Assembly (NCBI RefSeq): GCF_000240165.1
Contig: NC_017586.1
Span: 124,001 to 188,000, forward strand
Direction of reading: 5' to 3'
Origin: Streptantibioticus cattleyicolor NRRL 8057 = DSM 46488
GTDB lineage: Bacteria > Actinomycetota > Actinomycetes > Streptomycetales > Streptomycetaceae
Length of the DNA: 64,000 bases
This document shows positions 15,609 to 64,000 of this stretch, in pieces. The notes beneath the pieces are model-generated. The model searched no databases and was not told the origin of the DNA. It saw only the letters and a list, made by a program, of their open reading frames with translations. Numbering within the stretch: the first letter of the stretch is position 1; each line of letters starts with the position of its first letter. A program made the translations under genes and the position numbers.

Positions 15609-18386
15609 ATGATCGAGCGAGAGTCCGAGCTCGCTGAGCTGGCTGCAGCTTTTGCCGAGTCCGCCGCTGGGGGTGTGCGGGTCGTCGTGCTCAAGGGGGT
15701 TGTCGGGACCGGTAAGACAGCGTTGATGGAGGAGTTCGGTGGCCGGGCTCGTGGGGCGGGGGCGCGATTGCTCCGGGCGAGTGGGGCGCCGACCGAGAGC
15801 TCGCTTTCCTTGGGCATCGTGCGTCAGTTGCTTGCTGGTGAGGTTTTCGACCGCGACAGGGCGGTGGTCGTGCGTGGTTTGCTCGACCACCAGTTGCTCG
15901 CCGATGCGGCGTGCGACGGGGTGAGTCGCTCTCGGGTGTTGGACGGGTTGGCGACGGCGGTCCTGGAGTTGGCCGAGCAGAGCCCGGTGGTGATCGCCAT
16001 TGACGACACACAGTATCTCGACGCGTTCTCCCAGGATTGGCTGATCTATCTGATCCGCCGTGCCGGGCTCGCCCGCATCTTGATCGTCCTTGGCTGGCGC
16101 GACGACGACATCGAGATGTCTCCGAGCAACTCCCGGCTACTGTGCGCCGAGCTCTACCAGCATGCCTACTTGCGACTGCTGCTGCTGGCTCCACTGTCGT
16201 CGAGCGGCGTCGCGGAACTCATGACCGAGCGACTCCCCCAGTCCGTTTCGACGGAACTGGCCGCGGAGGCACACCAGCTCACCGGTGGCAATCTGCTGCT
16301 GCTGCATGCGTTGCTGGAGGACAGTTGGGCTGCCATCCGCGGCGATGGCCCGCCGACCGAGCTGAACACCGGTCCCGAGTTCGAGCGGGCGGTCCAGCTC
16401 GTCCTGCGCCGGTGCGATCCGGTGACGTTGCGGGTCGCGGGTGCGATCTCGGTGATCGGTGAGCCGTCGCGGTTCGCCTTCCTCGACCGGCTGGTCGGCG
16501 TCGCGTCGGACCGGGTCGCTGCCGCCACGCAGATCCTGACCCGGACCGGTTTGGTGGAGGCCGGCCGGATGCGGCACCCGATCATGGCCGGCGCCGTGCT
16601 CAACGCCTTCTCGGCCACGGAGCGCTCCGAGCTGAGCCGACGCGCCGCGGATCTGCTCAAGGCGTGTGGTGCGGACTCCTTGACGATCGCGGAGCACTTC
16701 GTCGCCTCCGGCCGTCTCGACGACCCGTCGGCCGTGCTGAACCTGGTGGAGGGGGCGCAGCAGGCGCTGGAGGAGGGCCACTCGCGGCGGGCCACGGAGT
16801 TGCTGCGGCTCGCGTACCAGGTCGACACCGACGGCCGGCGTCGGGTGGAGATTCTCGCCCTGCTGCTGCGGGCGGGGTGGCGGGACGATCTGCGAGCCTC
16901 GGTCGGGCATCTGTCCGAGCTGACCGAGGCGATGCTGAGCGGTCGGCTTCGGGGCCGGCACGCGACGATGCCCATCATCATGCTGCTGATCCAGGGGCGG
17001 GTGGAGGATGCCTGCTCCGTGCTCTCCCGGCTGGCGGCCGACGTGCCGCCGGGCTCCCGGCCCTCATGGGAGTTCGAGATGGTACGGATGTGGCTGGCCA
17101 ACATCTATCCGGGCATCTTCCGGCGCGTGGCCGGCGAGAGCAGGACGAACGGCACGCCGATCATGCCTCCGGGCGCTATCGGTTATCGACTGCTCGAACA
17201 CTTCCAGAGCTCCCACCACCAGGGGGCACCCGCGGAACGCCTGGTCCAAGCCGACGAGGCGCTGTGGCAACAGCCGCTGACCGAGATCAATCTGTTGCCG
17301 CTCATTCTCGCGTTGCACACGATGATGTATGCCGAGCGATTGGAGGAAGCCGAGCAGCGGTGCCGGGAACTGACGCAGACCTGCCTCGACCTCCAGGCAC
17401 CCACCTGGCGTGCGCTGTTCTGCGCGATCGCGGCGGACATCGCCTTGCGCCGAGGCTCGCTCGGCGTCGCGGCCTCCCGGGCGGCCGCCGCGCTCGAACT
17501 CGTCCCGGTCGCCGAATGGGGCGTGATGGCCGCTGAACCGTTGAGTACCCTGCTGACGGCGCAAACGCTACAGGGCAAACACGACGAAGCGGCACGCACG
17601 CTCGCCCTGCGAGTGCCGGACGTGATGTTCGAGACGCCGTTCGGCCTGTCCTACCTGCTGGCGCGCGGCCGCCACTACGTCGAACGCGGCCTCGCCCAGG
17701 TCGCCCTCGACGATTTCCAGGCCGTCGCCGACCTGCTCGACCAGTGGGGGGTGGCCCAAACCGAGACACTGCCGTGGCGCACCGAGATGGCCGCCGCTCA
17801 CCTGCAACTCGGGGACCACGAGACGGCCGCGCGCTACGCTCGCGAGCAGCTGCGGCGCATCGGGACGGACAGCCATCTGCGGGTGCGCGGACGCACCATG
17901 CGGCTGCTGGCGGCCACCCGCGAACTGCACCTGCGGCCACCCCTGCTGTGCGAGGCTGTGGATGTGCTGCACCGAAGCGGGGACAAGTTCGAGTTGGCGA
18001 CTGCGCTCGCCGCCCTGCGCGATACATACACCCAACTTGGTGATGCCGGCCGGGCGCGGTCAGTGGCACGCAAGACCAACAGCATCAGGCAGGCGTGCTT
18101 CGCGGAACAACCCGCTCGGCGGGTCGACGCGCCGGACGTGCTGGAGGAGACGGAAGTCGACATGCTCGCGCTCAGCGACGCGGAGCGGAGGGTCGCCAAG
18201 TTCGCGGCAAAAGGCCTGACCAACCGGGAGATCGCGAGCAAGCTCTACCTCACGACCAGCACGGTGGAGCAGCACCTGACCCGGATCTACCGCAAACTGG
18301 GGGTCAGCTCACGAGTACAGCTGCTGTCCCGCCTCGGACCCCAGCCAACCCCCTCACACCCGGCTCTTGAAAACGCCTCCGCCTGA
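15609..18386 (+). CDS. LAL-type LuxR transcriptional regulator
   Basis: A 925-residue regulator. The N-terminus begins MIERESELAELAAAF, followed by the Walker A motif LKGVVGTGKTALMEEF. A Walker B-like VVIAIDDTQYLDAFSQDW lies near residues 118-135. A long helical-repeat middle region follows, and the C-terminal LuxR HTH is at about 860-915: LSDAERRVAKFAAKGLTNRE, IASKLYLTTSTVEQHLTRIY. This architecture is that of the LAL family, whose members (for example PikD) are pathway-specific activators of macrolide clusters. The ATG at 15609 has a GAGAGGGG ribosome-binding site. It is flanked on both sides by dead transposases and is the only regulator seen in the window, so it probably controls the PKS cluster. 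Target sites are not established. Confidence 0.93.
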   Translation: MIERESELAELAAAFAESAAGGVRVVVLKGVVGTGKTALMEEFGGRARGAGARLLRASGAPTESSLSLGIVRQLLAGEVFDRDRAVVVRGLLDHQLLADAACDGVSRSRVLDGLATAVLELAEQSPVVIAIDDTQYLDAFSQDWLIYLIRRAGLARILIVLGWRDDDIEMSPSNSRLLCAELYQHAYLRLLLLAPLSSSGVAELMTERLPQSVSTELAAEAHQLTGGNLLLLHALLEDSWAAIRGDGPPTELNTGPEFERAVQLVLRRCDPVTLRVAGAISVIGEPSRFAFLDRLVGVASDRVAAATQILTRTGLVEAGRMRHPIMAGAVLNAFSATERSELSRRAADLLKACGADSLTIAEHFVASGRLDDPSAVLNLVEGAQQALEEGHSRRATELLRLAYQVDTDGRRRVEILALLLRAGWRDDLRASVGHLSELTEAMLSGRLRGRHATMPIIMLLIQGRVEDACSVLSRLAADVPPGSRPSWEFEMVRMWLANIYPGIFRRVAGESRTNGTPIMPPGAIGYRLLEHFQSSHHQGAPAERLVQADEALWQQPLTEINLLPLILALHTMMYAERLEEAEQRCRELTQTCLDLQAPTWRALFCAIAADIALRRGSLGVAASRAAAALELVPVAEWGVMAAEPLSTLLTAQTLQGKHDEAARTLALRVPDVMFETPFGLSYLLARGRHYVERGLAQVALDDFQAVADLLDQWGVAQTETLPWRTEMAAAHLQLGDHETAARYAREQLRRIGTDSHLRVRGRTMRLLAATRELHLRPPLLCEAVDVLHRSGDKFELATALAALRDTYTQLGDAGRARSVARKTNSIRQACFAEQPARRVDAPDVLEETEVDMLALSDAERRVAKFAAKGLTNREIASKLYLTTSTVEQHLTRIYRKLGVSSRVQLLSRLGPQPTPSHPALENASA

Positions 18387-19553: not shown

Positions 19554-20780
19554 TCATGCCGCTTTGACCGGGATCCCCCGGAGGCCCCGCAGCGTGAAGT
19601 CGGGGCCGAATTCAATATCGCCCGCGATCTCGTACTCCGGCAACTCGTCCAGCAGCCGATTCAACCAAATATGCATCTCCATCCGAGCCATATGAATTCC
19701 AAGGCAGATGTGAGGCCCGAAACCAAATCCGATATGTGCTTTACGGAGACGGAAGATGTCGAAGGAGTCCGGGTTGTCCCAGCGAGCGGGATCGCGATTC
19801 GCGCATCCCAGAAGAGCCACGACCGAGGAACCCTCGGGGATCGTAAAGCCCTCGACCTGCGACTCGTCGCTACAGGCGAAGCGCAAGACCGATTGCGTGA
19901 GAGTCGACCAACGGTGGACCTCCTCGAGTGCGGCGGGAACGAGCGACCTGTCGGCGACCAGCGCGCGACGTTGGTCAGGATGGCGTCCCAGCGCGTACAA
20001 CATCATCGCCATCACCTGTGCGGTACTCTCATTCGCCGCAACCGTCAGCATCGTCCCGTTGGCCAATATTTCCCGATCAGGCATGGACGGCGCGAAATCG
20101 TCGAACACCATCTGGCCCATGAGCGATCCATCAGACACCCCCAGCGCACGGTGCCTTTCGATGAGGCCGCCGATGTACGAGTTCAAAGCAACTGCTGCCG
20201 CAGCGCCCTCGGCGACAATCTCTTGCCCCCTCGGAGTCGGGTCCAGCCGCGCGCCGAGAACCGCCGCCGTTGCGTCACTCCATTTGATGAAGTCGTCGTA
20301 CACGTCCTCTTCGACGCCCAGCAACTGGGCAGTGACAACAGTGGGAATGATCCGCGTCATCTCCGCGAGAGCGTCGAGAGATTCGCCGGAGCGAAGGCGT
20401 TCGACGAAACGATCCACGTATACGTCCACAACTCGCTGTATCCGCGCCGCCCACTCGGCCTCGACAGCCCTGCGCTCGAATCCTGGCTCCCAGATTCCGC
20501 GGACCCTCTGATGCCGTGCACCATCGGTGCCGAGAAAAGTCGGTCCGCCGAACGCTTTCTCCATCTCCGGGAGCACGTTCGCCGAGTTGAAATGGCGGAT
20601 GTCACCAAGCACTCGCGCGCAGTTGTGATGCGACATGATCATGTACTGATCGTGGTGGGAGTTGTAGACAACCGGCCCCAAAGCTCGCCATGCGGCCATG
20701 GTCTCATAGGGGTCCTGCACGAAGTCTGGATCAAGCATGTTCAAGTCCACGGTGGGACATTCCGTCACTGCGGAGTTCAT
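19554..20780 (-). CDS. Cytochrome P450 (tailoring hydroxylase/epoxidase)
   Basis: A 408-residue soluble P450. The heme loop FGFGPHICLG supplies the Cys ligand, and the ExxR motif is in EEVHRW. The I-helix reads LTVAANESTAQVM, where most P450s have AGxET(T/S); the usual Thr is Ser, followed by Thr. The start ATG at 20778-20780 overlaps the TEII stop as ATGA, so translation is coupled. It is the last gene of the minus-strand cluster operon, with no clear terminator before the IS701 remnant. It probably oxidises the polyketide after release; position and stereochemistry cannot be predicted. P450 electron partners are not encoded nearby. Confidence 0.92.
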   Translation of the reverse strand: MNSAVTECPTVDLNMLDPDFVQDPYETMAAWRALGPVVYNSHHDQYMIMSHHNCARVLGDIRHFNSANVLPEMEKAFGGPTFLGTDGARHQRVRGIWEPGFERRAVEAEWAARIQRVVDVYVDRFVERLRSGESLDALAEMTRIIPTVVTAQLLGVEEDVYDDFIKWSDATAAVLGARLDPTPRGQEIVAEGAAAAVALNSYIGGLIERHRALGVSDGSLMGQMVFDDFAPSMPDREILANGTMLTVAANESTAQVMAMMLYALGRHPDQRRALVADRSLVPAALEEVHRWSTLTQSVLRFACSDESQVEGFTIPEGSSVVALLGCANRDPARWDNPDSFDIFRLRKAHIGFGFGPHICLGIHMARMEMHIWLNRLLDELPEYEIAGDIEFGPDFTLRGLRGIPVKAA

Positions 20781-21796
20781 CGGACGTCCTCTCCCTGGCC
20801 GGGATCGATATCACCGGGCGTCATTGCGGCCAACACGTGTTCAGCGGGAACGTTGTAGCAGTGGGCATCAAGAGTGTGCAGCTGGGACAAGCGGATGAGC
20901 TCATCCTTGTCAGTCGCCTCGATGAGACCTCCGCACATCGGGCAGCTCACTTCAAGGCCGGCGTCCATGGCCGCACCCTCTTCCGGTTCGTCGCTGAACA
21001 GACCCTGGCGTTCCGCCGTGATGCCTCGTTCGGAACGGAAGCCGAAGAGCACACGCCTCACGCAGTCGGCTATCTCGGCGATGTGCTCGTGTATGAAGAA
21101 ATGACCTCCGGTCAGGACCTTGATCTCGAAGGATCCGGCTGCGTGTTCTCGCCAAGCACTTGCCTCCTCGAGCGACACGCTCGGATCGCGATCGCCCGTT
21201 ATTGCCATGATCGGCACGTTCAACGTCGTCTCTGTTGTCGGCGCACGATACGTCTCGACGGCCCGATAATCGCCACGGATCACGGGAAGGATCACGCGTC
21301 TCATCTCGTCGTCTTCGAGAAGAGCCGGGTCCGTGCCACCCAGCGATCGGAGGTTGGCGATGATGCTGTCGTCATCGGCCGCATGAGAATCCTCATCACG
21401 ATGACGCGACGGGGCGCGGCGCCCGGACGCGAACAATGCGAGCGGCGCGCGTCGATCATCTCGCTGGAAGCGACGCGCCACCTCGAACGCCACCACCGCA
21501 CCCATGCTGTGACCGAAGAATGCGAGTGGCTGCGTTTCCCACGGGATCAGCGCCTCACAAATCTCATCGGCGAGCTGACCAATGTCCTCGATCAAAGGCT
21601 CGTGACGACGGTCCTGTCGCCCTGGATACTGGACTCCGAGCACCAAGATGTCCGGTTCGAGCGATTTTGCCAGCGAGTGAAAATACCCTGCCGAACCGCC
21701 CGCGAACGGAAAGCATACGAGATGTACTCGACCGCGCCGAGCCGAGCTTCGCAGCGGCCTGATCCAGGATCCGCCACTCGTGGTTGATGCGTGCAC
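20777..21796 (-). CDS. Type II thioesterase with fused C2H2 zinc-finger-like tail
   Basis: A 339-residue protein in two parts. Residues 1 to about 255 form an editing type II thioesterase (alpha/beta hydrolase) that removes wrong or stalled acyl groups from PKS carrier proteins. It has LVCFPFAGGSAGYF, the nucleophile elbow FFGHSMGAVVAFE (Ser97), an acid in ITGDRDPSV, and His232 in TGGHFFIHEH. TEII proteins normally end there. This one continues about 80 residues with CPMCGG, ELIRLSQLHTLDAH and YNVPAEHV, giving Cys285, Cys288, His307 and His312 (C-x2-C-x18-H-x4-H). The tail resembles small DUF1059-type metal-binding proteins. The start is GTG 21796 behind AAGGAA. The stop overlaps the P450 start. 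Confidence 0.88.
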   Translation of the reverse strand: MHASTTSGGSWIRPLRSSARRGRVHLVCFPFAGGSAGYFHSLAKSLEPDILVLGVQYPGRQDRRHEPLIEDIGQLADEICEALIPWETQPLAFFGHSMGAVVAFEVARRFQRDDRRAPLALFASGRRAPSRHRDEDSHAADDDSIIANLRSLGGTDPALLEDDEMRRVILPVIRGDYRAVETYRAPTTETTLNVPIMAITGDRDPSVSLEEASAWREHAAGSFEIKVLTGGHFFIHEHIAEIADCVRRVLFGFRSERGITAERQGLFSDEPEEGAAMDAGLEVSCPMCGGLIEATDKDELIRLSQLHTLDAHCYNVPAEHVLAAMTPGDIDPGQGEDVR

Positions 21797-21950: not shown

Positions 21951-22427
21951 CTACTGATCGAATGGGCTCCGCCCTGCCGGGAATTCGAAGGTACCGACTT
22001 CCGGCCTGGTCAACGGGATCACTTTGCGGCTGGCGAACTTCCAGATCCCGTCCTCGCGAACGTATTCATCCTTGTAGTACGCGGTGGCCCGTGAGATCCC
22101 GCCGGCCCGCACATCGCCCTGGGCGAAGACATGGCAGTTACCGGACGCTCGGGATTCGTGAATCTCATTGATGACATGATTGGCCGTCAGATGGCAGAGG
22201 TTCTCCATCTGCCCGTAAATATCGACTTCGAAGTGATGCCGGATCTCGTCCTTCCCGGTGAACCTTCCCAGTCCGAACTCTTCTTCGTCGAAAACCGGGC
22301 CGACGTCGCTCCACAGCTCCATCAAAGAATCGAACTGGCGAGTGTCGAGCCGATACGCATACTTGGCCGTCAGCTCAATGATGTCGAGTCGATCGACCAT
22401 GCGAGAGAATGCGTTCTCCGTCACCAC
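21951..22427 (-). CDS. SnoaL/NTF2-like protein (possible cyclase or dehydratase)
   Basis: A protein of about 158 residues of the SnoaL_4 type: FSRMVDRLDIIELTAKYAYR, LDTRQFDSLMELWSDVG, then GKDEIRHHFEVDIYG, LCHLTANHVINEI, and ATAYYKDEYVREDGIWKFAS. The paired His residues after GKDEIR and the Asp of the first helix region resemble catalytic positions in this fold. Members include polyketide cyclases, dehydratases and isomerases. The frame is open to 22514, but GGAGG at 22434-22438 lies 6 nt from the GTG at 22427 and 9 nt from the GTG at 22424, so the start is one of these. It sits between the TEII and SDR genes of the tailoring operon. Ring formation or isomerisation of the polyketide is inferred. 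Confidence 0.8.
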   Translation of the reverse strand: MVTENAFSRMVDRLDIIELTAKYAYRLDTRQFDSLMELWSDVGPVFDEEEFGLGRFTGKDEIRHHFEVDIYGQMENLCHLTANHVINEIHESRASGNCHVFAQGDVRAGGISRATAYYKDEYVREDGIWKFASRKVIPLTRPEVGTFEFPAGRSPFDQ

Positions 22428-22520
22428 GGGAAGCCTCCGGTAACTTGTTCGCGCCTGGGGCGCTGACAGGACTTCGGTTGATCGATGAGCGACGTCTTTT
22501 TCGTGAACCGGCACCAGCTC

Positions 22521-23363
22521 CTATCGAATTTTGTTGGGAAGCATCATTCCGGCATCCACGGGAAGGGTGATTCCGGTAATGTGACGTGCCTCGTCCGACG
22601 CCAGATAGAGCACGGCGTCGCTGACCCCCCGCGAGTCCAGCCAGCCGACGGGCAACGCGCTCATCTCCTTCATCACATCGTTTGCAGCCTCCGGTGTCGG
22701 ATCGGAGACTCCGGGCAGGAAGAGTTTTCGCATCGGAGCATTGTTGACCATCGGCGTGTCGATATTTCCCGGATTGACCGAATTCACGCGTATGTTGTGC
22801 GGTGCCAGCTCTGCTGCCAAGGCACGCATCAACCCGACCACGCCGTGCTTGGATGCGGTGTAGTGCGACATGGTCGGCACGCCGATCAACCCCGCTGTCG
22901 AGCTGACGAAGACCAGTGATCCGCCCTCGTTCCGTTCGATCATGTGGGGAATCACCGCTTTGACGGTTTTCCACGATCCCGTCAGATTGACGTCAATAAT
23001 TTCCTGCCAGGCTTCGTCGGAAAGTTCCCACGAGAACCCGAAGCTGGATATTCCAGCATTTGCGCACACGACGTCGATATGACCGAACTCGGCTATCGCC
23101 TCATCGACGACACCCTGCAGTTCCTCGAAGTTGCGCGTATCCGCCCGGCGGGCGAGGATCCGCCGGCCCAGCTGTTCGACCAGTTGCGTCGTCGAGGCAA
23201 GATCCTCACTGTTCGCCCCTGGATACGGCGTGGTTTCGAGGTCCGCGCACAGGTCAACAGCTACGATGTCTGCCCCTTCCTGGGCAAGTCGCACCGCATG
23301 CGAACGTCCCATTCCACGCGCAGCGCCAGTAACCAATGCGACTTTCCCGGCGACCCGGCTCAA
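22521..23363 (-). CDS. Mycofactocin-type SDR family oxidoreductase
   Basis: A 280-residue SDR. The N-terminus VALVTGAARGMGRSHAVRLA, followed by EGADIVAVDLC, is the typical sequence of the SDR group annotated as mycofactocin-coupled (carveol-dehydrogenase-like). Those enzymes hold a non-exchanging NAD and pass electrons to the peptide-derived cofactor mycofactocin. NAG (CANAGISSFG), the catalytic Ser (FVSSTAG) and the YTASK pair are present. The long insertion before the second strand (DLETTPYPGANSEDLAST) also fits that group. The start is TTG 23363, supported by GGAGGT with 6-nt spacing. No mycofactocin biosynthesis gene is in the window. In this operon it probably oxidises a hydroxyl of the polyketide. 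Confidence 0.85.
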   Translation of the reverse strand: MSRVAGKVALVTGAARGMGRSHAVRLAQEGADIVAVDLCADLETTPYPGANSEDLASTTQLVEQLGRRILARRADTRNFEELQGVVDEAIAEFGHIDVVCANAGISSFGFSWELSDEAWQEIIDVNLTGSWKTVKAVIPHMIERNEGGSLVFVSSTAGLIGVPTMSHYTASKHGVVGLMRALAAELAPHNIRVNSVNPGNIDTPMVNNAPMRKLFLPGVSDPTPEAANDVMKEMSALPVGWLDSRGVSDAVLYLASDEARHITGITLPVDAGMMLPNKIR

Positions 23364-23411: not shown

Positions 23412-23834
23412 TCACTCGGCAGCGGCGAACATGATCAGTTTCACGTCGGCCCCTTCGACCTTACCGAGATCGTAAGGACGCCAAGCCATGAAACCCGTCT
23501 GGCCGAGGTACCGGCCACTGGTACCCACACTCGGGTAGTAGGCCCAGTCCCCCGACAGGAGTGACCCGAGGTCGATCCAACCGGCAACCCGGATCGTTCC
23601 GGATCCGTCCTCGAAGACGACTTCGTTGGTCAGGTAAGCCATGAACTGGTTGTCGGATTCTCGCTGATAGAGAATCTTGTAGCCACCCGAGGTGGTGGCC
23701 ACTTTTTCACCGGACCTGGTGAACAGGGCGTGCTCGTAGGTACCACCCTGGCCGACCTGGATGTTCTGGAAGTCCTCGATGTCAGTGGTGGCGCTGATCG
23801 TCGTCTCGACCAGTTCCTCGTAGCTGTTGAGCAC
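23412..23834 (-). CDS. AbyU-like / allene-oxide-cyclase-type beta-barrel protein (candidate pericyclase)
   Basis: A 140-residue protein rich in alternating beta-strand pattern, without signal peptide. Motifs are TTSGGYKILYQRESD (47-61), TIRVAGWIDLG (80-90), WAYYPSVGTSGRYLGQTGFM (97-116) and AWRPYDLG (117-124). Length and motif order match, from memory, the spirotetronate [4+2] cyclase AbyU and its relatives, which share the eight-stranded barrel of allene oxide cyclase-like proteins. Such enzymes enclose a linear polyketide and catalyse an intramolecular cycloaddition. The start is GTG 23834 after AAAGGG. It lies in the tailoring operon between a SnoaL-like gene and the SDR gene. Family membership is fairly sure; the reaction is inferred. 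Confidence 0.75.
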   Translation of the reverse strand: MLNSYEELVETTISATTDIEDFQNIQVGQGGTYEHALFTRSGEKVATTSGGYKILYQRESDNQFMAYLTNEVVFEDGSGTIRVAGWIDLGSLLSGDWAYYPSVGTSGRYLGQTGFMAWRPYDLGKVEGADVKLIMFAAAE

Positions 23835-23861: not shown

Positions 23862-24221
23862 TCAGACCTTGCGGTAGACGTCCTTGAGCACGATCTTCCC
23901 GTCGCTCAGGATGAAGAGGTCGACACCACGATTGACCACCTTTCCGTCATCGGTCTCCACGGTCCACCGAACCAGCCCCATGTTCTCACCGAACATGATC
24001 GGCGATTCGAACTTTCCGTCGACCCCAGAGGCGATCATCTTTTCGCGCATCGCGTTCATGCTGGTGATCAGATCGCCGATCTGATCCTTGGTGTGGACCG
24101 TTCCGAGTCCGTCTCCGTCGGGCGTGATCCACTGCCCGTCATCGGCGAAACATTCGACGGCGGTCTCGATGTCGCCGGCCCCCGAGCTCTTGAAGAACCG
24201 GTCGATCACTTCTGCTGACAT
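23862..24221 (-). CDS. Small SnoaL-like protein (NTF2 fold)
   Basis: A 119-residue protein beginning MSAEVIDRFFKSSGAGDIET, then CFADDGQWITPDGDGLGTVH, DQIGDLITSM, VRWTVETDDGKVVNRGVDLF and DGKIVLKDVYRKV. This is a SnoaL-like/limonene-epoxide-hydrolase-type cone fold by pattern. Proteins of this size act in polyketide clusters as epoxide-opening cyclases, pyran synthases or cycloaddition catalysts. The ATG at 24221 has GGAG 8 nt upstream; the extension to 24425 is antisense-like and overlaps the P450 gene. It is 38 bp downstream of P450 and 27 bp upstream of the AbyU-like gene. Its partner role with the barrel protein is inferred. Confidence 0.8.
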   Translation of the reverse strand: MSAEVIDRFFKSSGAGDIETAVECFADDGQWITPDGDGLGTVHTKDQIGDLITSMNAMREKMIASGVDGKFESPIMFGENMGLVRWTVETDDGKVVNRGVDLFILSDGKIVLKDVYRKV

Positions 24222-25575: not shown

Positions 25576-56978
<31,403 letters not shown>

Positions 56979-57102
56979 CCGGATCGTCCCCTTCCACATC
57001 TCACATTGCGTCTTGCGGGGTCACGGCGGCGAGCGCCGGACACAATCTCCGTGGCGCGTCGAATTCCCCGGGCCGGATTTGTGCGCGGCCAACTTCAGCC
57101 GG

Positions 57103-57621
57103 TCAAGACTGCGGAAAGTCCCACCTGGTCGCGGACTCCCATCCGGCGATTCCCGCCCACCCGTAGATCCGCTCGGGGTTCAGCCGGAACACCGGCGCAC
57201 TCTGGCCGAAACGCGTGTGGACACGATCCTCGCTCACCGAGAGTTCCCAGTCGTACTTCACCCCGACGCCTTCGGCGAGCACGTTGATGTCGTCCCCGAT
57301 CACTCGGGAGCAACTGCCCTCGACCATCACCACGTCCTCGCCGACCTGCAAGTTCACGGAGGCCCGCGGGTTGACCTTCAAGAATTCACCGCAGCGGTTC
57401 TGGCTCGAGAACCAGAAGGTGTTCCGCTGCCAGATACCCCACAAGGGCCTGCTGTGTGGGCGTCCGTCCGGGCTGGTGGTGACCAGCCAGTACGTGGACG
57501 CGGACTTGAGCAAGTTCTCCGCCCAGCCCCACGGTTGTGTCGGCCCCGGCGCGGTCTGGCTGAAGATGAATGCCGACGTCCCCTTCGGGTTCTCCGCGTT
57601 CTTCAACACCTCGGCAGTCAT
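57103..57621 (-). CDS. PPOX/flavin-reductase-like split-barrel protein
   Basis: A 172-residue protein starting at ATG 57621 (AAGGGA 8 nt upstream), beginning MTAEVLKNAENPKGTSAFIF. A pyridoxamine-5'-phosphate-oxidase-like split barrel is indicated by STYWLVTTSPDGRPHSRPLW, NTFWFSSQNRCGEFLKVNP, RASVNLQVGEDVVMVEGSC and FRLNPERIYGWAG. Members bind FMN or F420 and act as reductases, oxidases or cofactor-binding proteins. The frame is open to 57795, but that part is arginine-rich and lacks homology. It is the first gene of the minus-strand operon, 103-124 bp before PKS A, and divergent from PKS C. It may supply reduced flavin or tailor the product; neither is shown. Confidence 0.75.
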   Translation of the reverse strand: MTAEVLKNAENPKGTSAFIFSQTAPGPTQPWGWAENLLKSASTYWLVTTSPDGRPHSRPLWGIWQRNTFWFSSQNRCGEFLKVNPRASVNLQVGEDVVMVEGSCSRVIGDDINVLAEGVGVKYDWELSVSEDRVHTRFGQSAPVFRLNPERIYGWAGIAGWESATRWDFPQS

Positions 57622-57991
57622 GTTGCTGTCCCTTCGCTCGTCCGCTGTGGGCGACCAGCGAGACGCACCGGTCTGGCTTCCGCGGTTCATGCTCGCAGCG
57701 CGATCGCGACACCGGCACCCCAAAAGAACCGCGTGACCACCGGGGTGGCGACTAGGGGGGTTAGGGGGGTGCCCGCGCCGACGTCGCAAGAGCATGGTTG
57801 TTCACGCGACCGCCCAGAGGTGGTCTTGATCGTGGTCCCGCCCAAGCCCTTTGCGCACGAGCTCTTCGCCGGACCGCCGGCCTCAGCAGACGCCTGCCAC
57901 GTGTCCAGGCACGACAAGTCCGGGGTACGCCGGACCACTCCGGGGTCCCCCGGGCCACTGGAACAGACGGAAGACAGATGGGGTTGCTCGT
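57622..57991. promoter_or_regulatory. Divergent promoter region of the PKS cluster
   Basis: This 370-bp non-coding region must hold promoters for both the minus-strand operon and PKS C. Two abutting 9-bp repeats (C/T)TAGGGGGG lie at 57752-57760 and 57761-57769. A perfect 6-bp inverted repeat GTCCGG/CCGGAC with a 6-nt spacer is at 57918-57935. I cannot place -10 and -35 boxes with confidence. Confidence 0.55.
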
Positions 57992-60900
57992 ATGGAGAAC
58001 GAGGACAAGCTTCGCCAGTATCTCAAGTTGGTCACGAGCGACCTCTACCAGGCTCGCAAGAAGATCACCGAGATGGAGGCCCAGGACACCGAGCCGATCG
58101 CCATCGTCTCGATGGCCTGCCGCTTGCCCGGCGACGTCTGGTCACCGGAGGACCTCTGGGAACTGGTCGCCAGTGGAACCGACGCGATCGGCGAGTCGCC
58201 GACCGACCGGGGCTGGGACATGGACAGCATCTACGACCCGGAGCCCGGGAAGCCCGGAAAGACGTACACCCGCGAGGGCGGCTTCATGTCCGGCCTGGCC
58301 GACTTCGACGCGGACTTCTTCGGCATCTCCCCACGCGAAGCTCTTGCCATGGACCCGCAGCAACGGATCGTCCTGGAGGCCGCCTGGGAGTCGTTCGAAC
58401 GGGCCGGCATCGACCCGGAGACCCTCCGCGGCACCGAGACAGGTGTGTTCATCGGCTCCAACACCCATGACTACGTGCCGTTGACCGTCACGGCACCCCG
58501 CGAGGTCGACGGCTATCTGCTGCTGGGCAACGCGCCCAGCGTGCTCTCCGGCCGCGTCGCGTACACATTCGGCTTCGAGGGCCCCGCAGTCACCGTCGAC
58601 ACCGCCTGTTCCTCGTCGTTGGTCGCGATGGACTACGCCGTTCGGGCCTTGCGTCGCGGCGAGACCACGATGGCTCTGGTCGGCGGCGTCGCGTCGATGT
58701 GCTCGCCACTGGTCATGGTCGACTTCAGTCGGCAGCGCGGGATCGCGCCCAACGGCCGGTGCAAGGCGTACGCGGACACCGCGGACGGCACCGGCTGGTC
58801 GGAGGGGGTCGGCCTGGTCCTGCTCGAGCGGCTCTCCGACGCGCGGGCCAACGGCCACCCGGTGCTTGCCGTCATCCGTGGTTCGGCGATCAACCAGGAC
58901 GGTGCCTCCAACGGCCTGACCGCTCCCAACGGCCCCGCCCAGCAACGGGTCATCCAGGCGGCGCTGGCCGACGGCCAGGTTCCGATGGAACAGGTCGACC
59001 TGGTCGAAGGGCACGGCACCGGCACCCGGCTGGGCGACCCGATCGAGGCTCAGGCCCTGCTGGCCACCTACGGCCGCAAGAAGAAGGACGGCGAGCCACT
59101 GTGGCTGGGCTCGCTGAAGTCGAACGTGGGTCACACCCAGGCGGCCGCGGGCGTCGTCGGCGTGATCAAGGCAGTGATGGCCATGCGCCACGGCGTCCTC
59201 CCCAAGACACTGCACGTGGACGAGCCGACGCGCGAAGTGGACTGGTCGGCCGGCGGGGTCAAGGTGCTGACGGAGAACCGCCCGTGGCCGGAGAACGAGT
59301 GGCCGCGCCGGGCAGGTGTGTCGTCGTTCGGCATGAGCGGTACCAACGCGCACGTCGTCCTGGAGCAGGCGCCCGCGCCGGAGGCGGTCGAGGCCGAGCC
59401 GGTGAGCGCACGGCCGACCGCCTTGCCCTTCCTGCTCTCCGCCCGTACTCCGCAGGCCCTGGCCGGTCAGGCGACGCGGCTGCGTGACTGGCTCGCCGAC
59501 GAGGACGTCGCCCTGCTCGACGTCGCGAAGTCGCTCGCGCTGCACCGCGTGACGTTCGAGCACCGCGCCGCCGTGGTCGCGGGCGACAAGGAGGGCCTGC
59601 TCGCGCAGCTCGACCTGCTGGCCGGCGGCGGCAGCGGTGCCACGGCGGTCGTCGGCACCGAGTGTCGCGGTCTCACCGCGGTGATGTTCCCCGGGCAAGG
59701 CTCGCAGCGCATCGGCATGGGCGCCCAACTCGCGGCCGCCTTCCCCGTCTTCGCCGCGGCGTACTCGGAGGTGCTGGGGTGGCTCGACCCCGAGCTGCCG
59801 CGGATCATCGCCGAGGGCGGCCCGACGCTGGACCGGCCCGAGTACGCGCATCCCGCGCTGTTCGCGATCGAGGTGGCGCTCTACCGCCTGGTCGAGTCGT
59901 GGGGTCTGCGCCCCGACTACCTGCTCGGACAGTCCTGTGGGGACATCGCGGCGGCGCACGTCGCGGGTGTGCTGTCACTCAAGGACGCGGCCACCATGGT
60001 CACCGCCCGAGCACGGCTGATCCAGACCTCGGCCGCCGGTGTGATGGCCTCGGTCGCGGCCGGCGCCGACGTGGTGGAGCCGGTCATCGCCGGCATCGAG
60101 GGCGTATCGCTCGCCGGTATCAACAGCCCGAGCTCAGTCACCATCTCGGGGCTGAAGGGCCCGGTCGAGGCGGCTGTGGCGCGACTGTCCGAACTCGGCC
60201 ACGCGTCCCGCACGCTGCGGGTCGGCGTCGCGGGCCACTCGGTCACGATGGAGCCGATCCAGGCCCGGTTCCGGGCCGTGGTGGAGACCTTGACCTATTC
60301 GGCCCCGACCATCCCGATGGTGGTGCCCGCCGAGGTGCTGTGCACCCCTGAGTTCTGGGTCCGGCAGATGCGCGACCCGGTGGACCTCGTCGGCGGCGTG
60401 GCCCGGCTGCGCGAGCGCGGCGTCACCCGGTTCATCGAACTGTCGCCCGCCGCGTCGATGACCAGCCACGTACGCGAATGCTACGGCGACGAGTCGGTGG
60501 TGGTCACACCGTCCCTGCGCAGTCGGCGCGACGAGGCGGAATGCGTCGCCGTGGCGATGGCCACCCTGCACGCCGCCGGCGTCGAGGTGGACTGGGCGGC
60601 CTTCTTCGCCGGCACCGGCGCGCGACGCGTCGACCTGCCCACCTACGCGTTCCAGCACGAACGCTTCTGGCTCGAGACCAGCCACGTCGGAGGGAACGAC
60701 CTCAGTTCGATCGGCCTGCGCTCGGTGGACGCCCCGCTCCTGGGTGCCGGAGTCTCGCTCGCCAACGACGGCGGCTTCCTGTGCACCGGCCGCCTGTCGC
60801 TCTCCACCCAGCCCTGGCTTGCCGACCACGCCCTGTTCGGCCGCGCCCTGCTGCCCGGCACCGCGTTCGTCGAGTTCGCGCTGCGCGCGGCGGACCAGGT

Positions 60901-63900
60901 CGGCTGTGAGCTGGTCGAGGAGCTGACCATCGAGGCCCCGCTGCCGCTGGAGCGGGGCGGCGTGGCGCTGCAGATCGTGGTCGGCGAGCCGGAGGAGTCC
61001 ACCGGCCGACGGTCGATCACCATCTGGTCGCAGCAGCAGGACCCGGACTCCCCCGACATCGACGCGGCCTGGACACGGCACGCCAGCGGGTTCGTCTCGG
61101 GGACCGCCGGCGCGAGCCGCGACGACCCCGAGATGGCCGAGTGGCCACCCGCCGGCGTCGAGGAAGTCGGGGTCGGCGATCTTTACGAGACCTTCGCCGC
61201 CGCCGGGTACGCCTACGGGCCGGTGTTCCGCGGTCTGAAGGCCGCCTGGCTGCGCGACGGGGAGGTCTTCGCCGAGGTGGCCCTGCCCGAGCAGGTGGGC
61301 GACGCCGGCGCGTACGGCATGCACCCTGCCCTGCTGGACGCCGCGCTGCACGCGATCGCGGTCACCGGCACCACCCAGGGTGTCGTCCCCTTCGTGTGGT
61401 CGGGCGTCCGGCTGTACGCCGTCGGTGCTTCCGCGCTGCGCGTACGGCTGACCCCGGTGGGGGCCGACACGGTGGCACTGCTGGTCGCTGACGGGACCGG
61501 CCGCACGGTACTGTCCGTCGACTCGCTGACCTTGCGGTCCGCCACCGCGGAACAGATCGCCGAGAGTGCTCCCCAGGCCCACGACTCCCTCTACGAGATC
61601 GAGTGGATCTCCGCGGGTGAGGTCGAGTCCTCGTCGCCCACCGGCTGGGCGAACCTGGGCGGCGGCGCGCCCGCGACGGGCACGGCGTACGACGGCTTCC
61701 CGGCGCTGCGGGCCGCCCTCGACGCCGGGGGCGAGGTGCCCACCGTGGTGCTGGCCGCTCCCGGTCACGACCACGGCCACGACGTGGCCGCGAACGTGCA
61801 CTCAGCTGTCAACCAGATGCTCGAACTGGTCCGCGCCTGGCTGGCCGACGAACGGCTGGCCACCTCACGGCTGGTCCTGGTCACCCGTGGCGCGTTGGCC
61901 ACGTACGAGGGCGAAGTCGTCCGTGACCTGGTCGGCGCGGCCCTGCACGGCCTGTTCCGCTCGGCGCGTGCCGAGAACCCGGGCCGGCTCGTCCAGGTCG
62001 ACCTCGCGCCCGGCGAGCCCGACTCGGCCGTGGTGGCGGCGCTCGACGCCGGGGAGGACGAGGTCGCCGTGCGCGCGGGCACGATCCTGGTGCCGCGGCT
62101 GGTCAAGGTCTCCTCCTCGAGGACGCTCGCCGTGCCGGCGGAGTCGACCGCCTGGCGCCTGTCCGCCCCCCACCCCGGTACTTTCGACGGGCTCGCCTTG
62201 ATCGAGTCACCCGAGGCGGTCGCGCCCTTGGCCGAGGGTGAGGTGCGGGTGGCCGTCCGAGCCGCCGGCGTGAACTTCCGGGACGTCATGTCCATCCTGG
62301 GCCTGGTCCGCGGTCAAGAAGTGCTCGGCGGCGAGGCGGCCGGCGTGGTGACCGAGGTCGGCCCGGGGGTCGTCGGTCTGGAGCCCGGGGACCGGGTGAT
62401 GGGCCTGTTCTTCGGGCCGTTCGGGCCGGTGGCCGTGGGCGACCACCGGATGGTGGTACCGATCCCGGACGGGTGGTCGTACCTGCAGGCCGCGACAGTC
62501 CCGATCACCTACCTGACCGCGTACTTCGGGCTCGTCGACGTGGCCGGCCTGCGGCCCGGCGAGTCCGTGCTCATCCACGCCGCCGCCGGTGGCGTCGGCA
62601 TGGCGGCCGTGCAGCTGGCCGCCCATCTGGGCGCCGAGATCTTCGCCACCGCCGGCCCCGCCAAGTGGGCGGCCGTTCGCGAGCTCGGCGTCCCCCGCGA
62701 ACGCATCTCGAACTCCCGCACCGCACAGTTCGCATCCGATCTGCTCGGCGCCACCGACGGCCGCGGCGTCGACGTGGTCCTCAACTCGCTCACCAACGAG
62801 CTCGTGGACGCCTCGCTACGACTGCTGCCGCGTGGCGGCCGGTTCGTCGAGATGGGCAAGACCGACATCCGCGACGCCGACCGGGTGGCCGAGGCGTTCC
62901 CCGGTGTGCGCTACCAGGCGTTCGACCTGCTCGGGGTGGCGCCCGAACGGGTCCACGAGATGTTGGTCGAGTTGCTGGACCTGTTCGACCGCGGCGCTCT
63001 CACCCTGCCTCCGACCACCACTTGGGACGTCCGCCGGGCCCCGGACGCGTTGAGGTTCCTCAGCCAGGCTCGGCACGTCGGCAAGATCGCCCTGACCATC
63101 CCGGTGCCCGTCGATCCGGCCGGGACCGTGCTGGTGACCGGCGCCTCCGGCGCGCTGGGCGGCTTGGTCGCCCGGCACTTGGTCGCCGAGCACGGCGTAC
63201 GCAACCTCGTGCTGGCGAGCCGGCGCGGCCCGGATGCTCCCGGCGCCACCGAGTTCACCACCGAGTTGACCGAGCTCGGCGCCTCGGTGACGACTGTCGC
63301 CTGTGACGTCTCCCACCGCGAATCGCTGCTCGGGGTGCTGGCCGCGATCCCCGCCGAACATCCGCTGACCGCGGTTGTGCACATCGCGGGCACCAGCGAC
63401 GACGGCGTCATCGGCTCGCTGACGACCGAGCAGATCGACACCGTGTTGCGTCCCAAGGTGGACGCCGGTTGGCTCCTGCACGAGCTGACCCAGGATCTCG
63501 ACCTCTCCGCCTTCGTGCTGTTCTCCTCCGCCGTCGGGGCATTCGGCGCCCCGGGCCAGGCCAATTACGCCGCCGCCAACGCGTTCCTGGACGCCCTCGC
63601 CCGGCACCGCCGCGCGTTGGGTCTGCCCGCCGTCTCGCTCGACTGGGGCCTTTGGTCCGCCACGAGCCACATGACGTCCTCGCTGCGGGAGGCCGACTGG
63701 GAACGGATGGCACGCGCCGGTATCAAGGCGATGTCCGACGAGGAAGGCCTGGCCCTCTTCGACGCGGCCGTCACCGTCGGCGCCCCGGTGGTGCTACCGG
63801 TCCGGCTCGACCTGGCCGCGTTCCGCGGGGAGGTGCCGCCCCTGCTGCGCCACCAGGTCTCCGGGCGGGTGCGTCGTACCGCCGTCGCGAGCGGCGGCGA

Positions 63901-64000
63901 TGCCAGCTCGTGGACCCGCCGTCTGCTCGCCCGGCCTCCGGCCGCCCGGCATCGGATCGTGCTGGACGCTCTCGCCGCCGAGACCGCGGCCGTGCTCGGG
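57992..64000 (+). CDS. Modular type I polyketide synthase, fully reducing module (PKS C, 3' end missing)
   Basis: Open from ATG 57992 to the window edge, over 2,000 residues. The N-terminal docking coiled coil ([20 protein letters not shown]) shows it accepts a chain from another PKS. KS: DTACSSS, Cys206. AT: active site GQSCGD instead of GHSxGE (Ser648), and VAGHS (His749) where malonyl ATs have [18 protein letters not shown] (His946) and [21 protein letters not shown] and [17 protein letters not shown] (about 1527). [11 protein letters not shown] (about 1716), AGTSDDG in place of LDD, and NYAAANAF. The start of an ACP is reached at the edge. The module would give a saturated two-carbon unit. 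It is transcribed away from the other PKS genes, so its position in the assembly line is unknown. Confidence 0.93.

Follow-up and report, generated by a model that had tools for sequence, protein, structure and literature searches.

A putative AbyU-branch barrel cyclase encoded beside P450 and SnoaL-type cyclase genes in an actinomycete polyketide cluster

Gene content of the extended cluster

The window, a stretch of 64,000 nucleotides corresponding to C2:124001-188000 of an 8.1 Mb actinomycete genome, carries a modular polyketide synthase (PKS) cluster which is cut by its right end (Table 1). Inspection of the sequence to the right, up to C2:243000, revealed that the cluster runs approximately 10 kb past the window, with two more PKS genes, C and D. 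Following PKS A on the same strand are genes for a cytochrome P450, a SnoaL-type cyclase, the barrel protein considered here, an SDR oxidoreductase, a second SnoaL-like protein, a thioesterase and a second P450, with only 27 bp separating the SnoaL-type gene from the barrel gene. This gene order is kept in orthologous clusters, and the last genes were not found in 2 of the more distant loci. The SDR scores 402 bits against the TIGR03971 cut-off of 300; despite this assignment, no mftC radical SAM gene scoring over its cut-off was found in the genome. The second SnoaL-like protein displays weak similarity to the dehydrochlorinase LinA (E 3e-5).

Table 1. Features of the polyketide cluster; positions are those of the window and its rightward extension.
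Feature	Position	Strand	Remarks
LuxR-family large regulator (AAA_16 + GerE)	15609..18386	+	Beside some orthologous clusters too
Second cytochrome P450	19554..20780	-	
Discrete thioesterase	20777..21796	-	
Second SnoaL-like protein (SnoaL_4, LinA-like)	21951..22514	-	
SDR oxidoreductase	22521..23363	-	Mycofactocin-coupled subfamily (TIGR03971)
AOC_like beta-barrel protein (AbyU branch), putative cyclase	23412..23834	-	140 aa; focal gene; translation, Pfam, PDB search, fold model, tree
SnoaL-type cyclase, AkaM family	23862..24221	-	119 aa; identical to PDB 9iq5
Cytochrome P450	24260..25579	-	Adjoins SnoaL-type gene in all related clusters examined
Modular PKS A	25576..43953	-	6125 aa; modules 3-6 (none; DH-KR; DH-KR; KR); source of predicted diene
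Modular PKS B	43950..56999	-	4349 aa; KSQ loading module and modules 1-2 (DH-KR; KR)
PNPOx / F420-dependent PPOX-class protein	57103..57795	-	Between divergent PKS genes
PKS C	57992..64000 in window, on to 69787 beyond	+	3931 aa; modules 7-8 (DH-ER-KR; DH-KR)
PKS D	69842-73879, beyond window	+	1345 aa; KS-AT-ACP-TE

The 4 PKS genes encode 9 extension modules in all, the terminal one being a beta-keto module with a thioesterase, and their docking-type termini point to B, A, C, D as the order. Based on motifs, the loading module is KSQ-AT(malonyl)-ACP, in agreement with the acetate start proposed in an earlier, sequence-only reading of the locus. Modules 1 to 3 were read as malonyl DH-KR, methylmalonyl-like KR, and malonyl without reduction; modules 4 to 6 as an unusual AT with DH-KR, malonyl DH-KR, and malonyl KR; and modules 7 to 9 as an unusual AT with DH-ER-KR, methylmalonyl DH-KR, and malonyl without reduction, with the thioesterase, the domain calls in modules 4, 5, and 7 resting on motifs only. 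Provided that all domains are active, the predicted product would be a 20-carbon chain that ends in a beta-keto acid and carries an enone (C3-C5), a diene (C10-C13), a ketone (C15), and a but-2-enyl-type terminus (C18-C20); given the unusual AT and DH motifs of modules 4, 5, and 7, this drawing may be wrong. The conjugated diene foreseen by the sequence-only reading is thus retained, but its predicted source is not PKS B, which has a single DH domain; it would derive from modules 4 and 5 of PKS A. The unusual AT motifs, in PKS A (residues ~1660-1800) and in module 7 of PKS C (~540-800), read AHSVGE with YPTH and GQSCGD with VAGH, and point to unusual extender units or to a loss of activity.

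FkbH (TIGR01686) is not encoded on the cluster contig; the single genome copy lies on another contig, at C1:1477505, and was judged unrelated. Nor was a FabH-type gene found near the cluster; on this contig, the closest KAS III C-terminal domain listed is at C2:248420, 100 kb off. PKS D contains its own thioesterase and no NRPS domains, and no tetramate genes were found in the extended cluster. As neither an FkbH- nor a FabH-type gene lies close by, a tetronate route cannot be seen, and the earlier observation that tetronate and tetramate genes are missing from the window also holds for its rightward extension.

Family assignment and distribution of the barrel protein

The barrel gene, on the reverse strand, is stop-free, starts with GTG, has a ribosome-binding-like AAAGGG just upstream, and encodes both motifs noted previously, TTSGGYKILY and WAYYPSVGTSGRYLGQTGFMAW. 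Its product matches the Pfam AOC_like model over the full profile (positions 1-123 of 123; E 7.8e-45; 152 bits against a cut-off of 25.9 bits). The top PDB match is AbyU (5dyq; E 3.5e-21; 38% identity over 93 residues), next come AbmU and AbnU (7dvi), and further matches include LucK (9uuv; E 7e-12), Cyc15b, and Cyc15, with PyrI4 being marginal (E 0.06). Orthologues are present in 8 other species (86-96% identity) and evolve under purifying selection (dN/dS 0.05-0.19); no relative was found in the plasmid records searched. The match and the conservation are far beyond chance, and on sequence grounds the window protein is an AOC_like barrel of the AbyU branch. Translation, the Pfam profile, and the PDB search therefore bear out the AbyU-type assignment of the sequence-only reading, which had listed AbyU, VstJ, and Tsn15 together; the nearest relatives are AbyU and AbnU, not VstJ and Tsn15.

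A low-confidence AlphaFold2 model of the barrel (pLDDT 54), computed from 9 near-identical rows, has AbyU as its top structural match (Z 10.4, 3.5 A over 120 residues), followed by other barrel [4+2] cyclases, with plant allene oxide cyclases and unrelated barrels ranking lower; LucK matches the same low-confidence model with Z 9.7. Because only near-identical orthologues were usable as rows, the model is weak support. AbyU, the abyssomicin spirotetronate Diels-Alderase (PDB 5dyv/7pxo), and AbnU share the Pfam family with the window barrel and, going by this low-confidence model, may share its eight-stranded barrel fold. Tsn15, PyrI4, and PloI4 belong to the same barrel superfamily of polyketide-pathway cyclases but are far more distant in sequence and act in tetronate or tetramate pathways.

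A search of relatives' genomes with the AOC_like model, covering a sample of the class, yielded AOC_like proteins in 63 of 297 genomes, including 12 matches of more than 100 bits. These strong matches fall into 2 sets. Seven have FkbH within 2 to 44 kb, and no relative of the window SnoaL gene was found within approximately 10 kb of them. The remaining 5 (the window, G161, G179, G142, and G125) have the SnoaL gene adjacent and FkbH not nearby, with G142 lacking FkbH in its whole genome. Since G161 and G179 appear to correspond to L009 and L010, 2 of the close orthologues, the 5 SnoaL-linked matches represent 2 lineages. The P450-SnoaL-barrel order recurs in G142, G125, and G662 (barrel identity ~42%), the last of which, found with a SnoaL alignment and belonging to another family, is a third barrel-bearing lineage. 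The same alignment retrieved P450-SnoaL clusters in G569, G492, and G313, with no barrel in the stretch read. The P450 and SnoaL genes are adjacent in every system examined; as this pair is constant and no barrel was found in the stretches read of 3 clusters, the barrel appears to be an addition in a subset. P450 and AkaM-type SnoaL clusters without an adjacent barrel (L069, L071, and L072), 2 of them with a thioesterase beside the SnoaL gene, are orphan candidates for carbocyclic polyketides. In G263 (L043 6970-10101), a YD-repeat (Rhs-like) reading frame runs on without a break into the AbyU-like frame downstream of it, which may explain the PDB name of AbyU, "YD repeat protein".

In the barrel tree, from which G662 and LucK were left out, the SnoaL-linked barrels form one group with moderate support (92/65), sister to AbyU and AbnU; the 2 groups together constitute a clade with 99/98 support, and a separate set of FkbH-linked barrels falls outside it. 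Positions equivalent to Trp124, Trp103, and Tyr106 of AbyU are kept in the window barrel, and Trp124 is retained in the SnoaL-linked barrels. Tyr76, which in AbyU hydrogen-bonds the lactone carbonyl of a bound tetronate analogue (PMC11268479), is replaced by Leu68 in the window barrel, and the remaining SnoaL-linked barrels have Leu or Ile there. FkbH-linked barrels have Tyr or Phe at this position, and distant members other residues; given the Phe in some FkbH-linked barrels, Tyr at position 76 is not universal. Arg122, part of the Glu19-Arg122 type salt bridge at the barrel head, corresponds to Met116 in the window barrel and stays Arg in G142, G125, and G662; the salt bridge is also absent from some library members (PMC10946715). 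Thus, the window barrel differs from AbyU in these 2 substitutions and in being linked to P450 and SnoaL genes without tetronate genes.

The SnoaL-type neighbour and the akaeolide pathway

The sequence-only reading did not mention the key neighbour of the barrel, the AkaM-type SnoaL cyclase, and what is new here is this company. The cyclase is identical over 119 of 119 residues to PDB entry 9iq5, and also 9iqm, with a W-to-A mutant in 9iqn. Because an identical structure has been deposited, the cluster or an identical gene is probably under experimental study elsewhere; no publication on this cluster turned up in a literature search that covered AkaM and the 9iq entries as well as cochleamycin, macquarimicin, FR182877, and hexacyclinic acid. 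Related PDB entries are 9iq7, 9iqd, and one named AkaM, 9iq3; from the name and the shared family, we infer that this AkaM is the akaeolide SnoaL-type cyclase. Structure prediction of the SnoaL neighbour alone was poor (pLDDT 49) and gave no useful fold match.

In the akaeolide pathway, a SnoaL-type cyclase beside a P450 has been proposed to couple an aldehyde, made out of the starter methyl group, with the activated methylene carbon of a beta-keto-delta-lactone; this closure, put forward in that paper as a proposal, would give a 15-membered carbocycle (PMC4306953). The akaeolide cluster resembles the one described here in having 4 modular PKS genes followed by the P450 and the SnoaL-type cyclase, and in the proposed conversion of a terminal methyl to an aldehyde with subsequent C-C closure; it differs in that its gene table lists no AOC_like barrel and its PKS has 7 extension modules versus 9. 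As in AkaM-type clusters, the P450 gene in the window adjoins an AkaM-family SnoaL gene beside a modular PKS, and the terminal PKS module (PKS D) has a thioesterase and no ketoreductase, leaving a beta-keto acyl end. The barrel is not needed for carbocyclisation, given that 3 AkaM-type clusters and akaeolide appear to manage without it (PMC4306953).

Candidate reaction of the barrel and alternatives

Given the missing tetronate genes and the coupling to the P450 and SnoaL-type cyclase, the barrel probably builds rings in a different polyketide class. Both the conservation of the P450-SnoaL-barrel cassette and the loss of the Tyr76 equivalent lend weight to the earlier suggestion of another polyketide scaffold. 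The best reading is a putative [4+2] cyclase whose substrate would be a polyketide with a beta-dicarbonyl, probably a macro-carbocyclic one. Its most likely role is to close a ring following, or in concert with, the P450 and SnoaL steps, through [4+2] reaction of the predicted diene with an alkene activated by the terminal 1,3-dicarbonyl. PKS B, A, C, and D would make the 20-carbon beta-keto acyl chain, which the thioesterase would release. The adjacent P450 would oxidise the terminal allylic methyl to an aldehyde, and the SnoaL-type cyclase would join this aldehyde to the acidic carbon between 2 carbonyls, producing a large carbocycle whose new alkene is doubly activated. The barrel would then enclose the carbocycle and direct an intramolecular [4+2] cycloaddition, probably a transannular one, in which the C10-C13 diene would react with one activated alkene out of C4=C5, C18=C19, and the newly formed C2=C20. 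The sequences themselves show the family, the operon, the conservation of the cassette, the PKS domain order as read from motifs, the lack of tetronate genes, and the replacement of the tetronate-contacting Tyr; every chemical step here, and the order of the steps, is what we infer. The proposal is supported by the linkage pattern of the strong matches (SnoaL-linked barrels without FkbH nearby in 5 of 5 cases, FkbH near the others in 7 of 7) and by the diene and terminal beta-dicarbonyl which the motif reading of the PKS predicts. Weighing against it are the nucleophilic activity described for LucK, which has the same fold, the AkaM-type clusters that appear to manage without a barrel, the low confidence of the barrel model, and the unusual motifs in modules 4, 5, and 7. 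Altogether, we give about an even chance that the window protein is an AbyU-branch barrel cyclase in an AkaM-type carbocyclic polyketide pathway, with a transannular [4+2] reaction as its probable activity.

The main rival, which we consider rather unlikely, is a nucleophilic ring closure, of the Michael or oxa-Michael type, on an alkylidene beta-dicarbonyl made by the SnoaL-type cyclase. The precedent is LucK of lucensimycin biosynthesis, likewise an AOC_like barrel of a modular PKS pathway and a match to the window protein in both sequence and model, which PMC12843353, citing JACS 2025, describes as catalysing nucleophilic spirocyclisation and not [4+2] cycloaddition; LucK works in a spirotetronate pathway. 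Chemistry combining a beta-keto ester with an unsaturated aldehyde gives ready Michael acceptors, and the loss of Tyr76 would fit such a change; however, LucK is more distant in sequence (E 7e-12 versus 3.5e-21 for AbyU), and the window barrel groups with AbyU and AbnU, albeit in a tree from which LucK is absent. Somewhat less probable again is an early [4+2] reaction on the linear chain, independent of the P450 and SnoaL steps, in which the C4=C5 enone and the C10-C13 diene would yield a decalin. The predicted diene and alpha,beta-unsaturated ketone are 4 carbons apart, which is decalin spacing, and no oxidation would be needed, but coupling to those steps is suggested by the 3 lineages in which barrels of this branch are linked with P450 and SnoaL genes, and AbyU-type barrels are not known to make decalins.

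A role as a carrier without catalysis, or as an AOC_like protein of general function that closes no ring, appears improbable: the family has no defining catalytic residue (PMC10946715) and its members are widespread in the genomes sampled, but the operon position, the purifying selection, and the recurrence of the cassette all argue against it. Least probable by far is a spirotetronate cyclase served by tetronate genes elsewhere in the genome. The closest solved relatives are spirotetronate cyclases and one FkbH domain is encoded in the genome, but on another contig; the nearest listed KAS III is 100 kb away, the PKS ends in its own thioesterase, and Tyr76 is replaced. As the tetronate context and the Tyr76 contact were both looked for and found lacking, the window barrel should not be filed as a spirotetronate cyclase. 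TedJ, considered as another non-spiro cyclase, is an unrelated flavoprotein. FR182877-like and cochleamycin-like products were set aside because the predicted PKS does not clearly match either, and therefore we name no product.

Tetronates or tetramates are the substrates of the barrel [4+2] cyclases that have been studied best. For polycyclic polyketides, proposals of transannular Diels-Alder steps go back a long way, in many cases with no enzyme assigned to the step. More tentatively than the assignment of the window protein itself, we suggest that one AbyU-type branch may have left tetronate chemistry to become the third part of a movable P450-SnoaL-barrel cassette, in which the first 2 enzymes would make a carbocycle bearing an activated alkene, on which the barrel would perform a transannular Diels-Alder or hetero-Diels-Alder reaction. 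The arrangement provides a genome-mining rule, namely a P450 gene beside a SnoaL gene beside an AOC_like gene, with no FkbH, and the SnoaL-linked barrels constitute a natural test of the contributions of Tyr76 and the barrel-head salt bridge. If the proposal is true, this conserved sister group tied to carbocycle-forming genes would show how the barrel scaffold is re-used for other ring systems.
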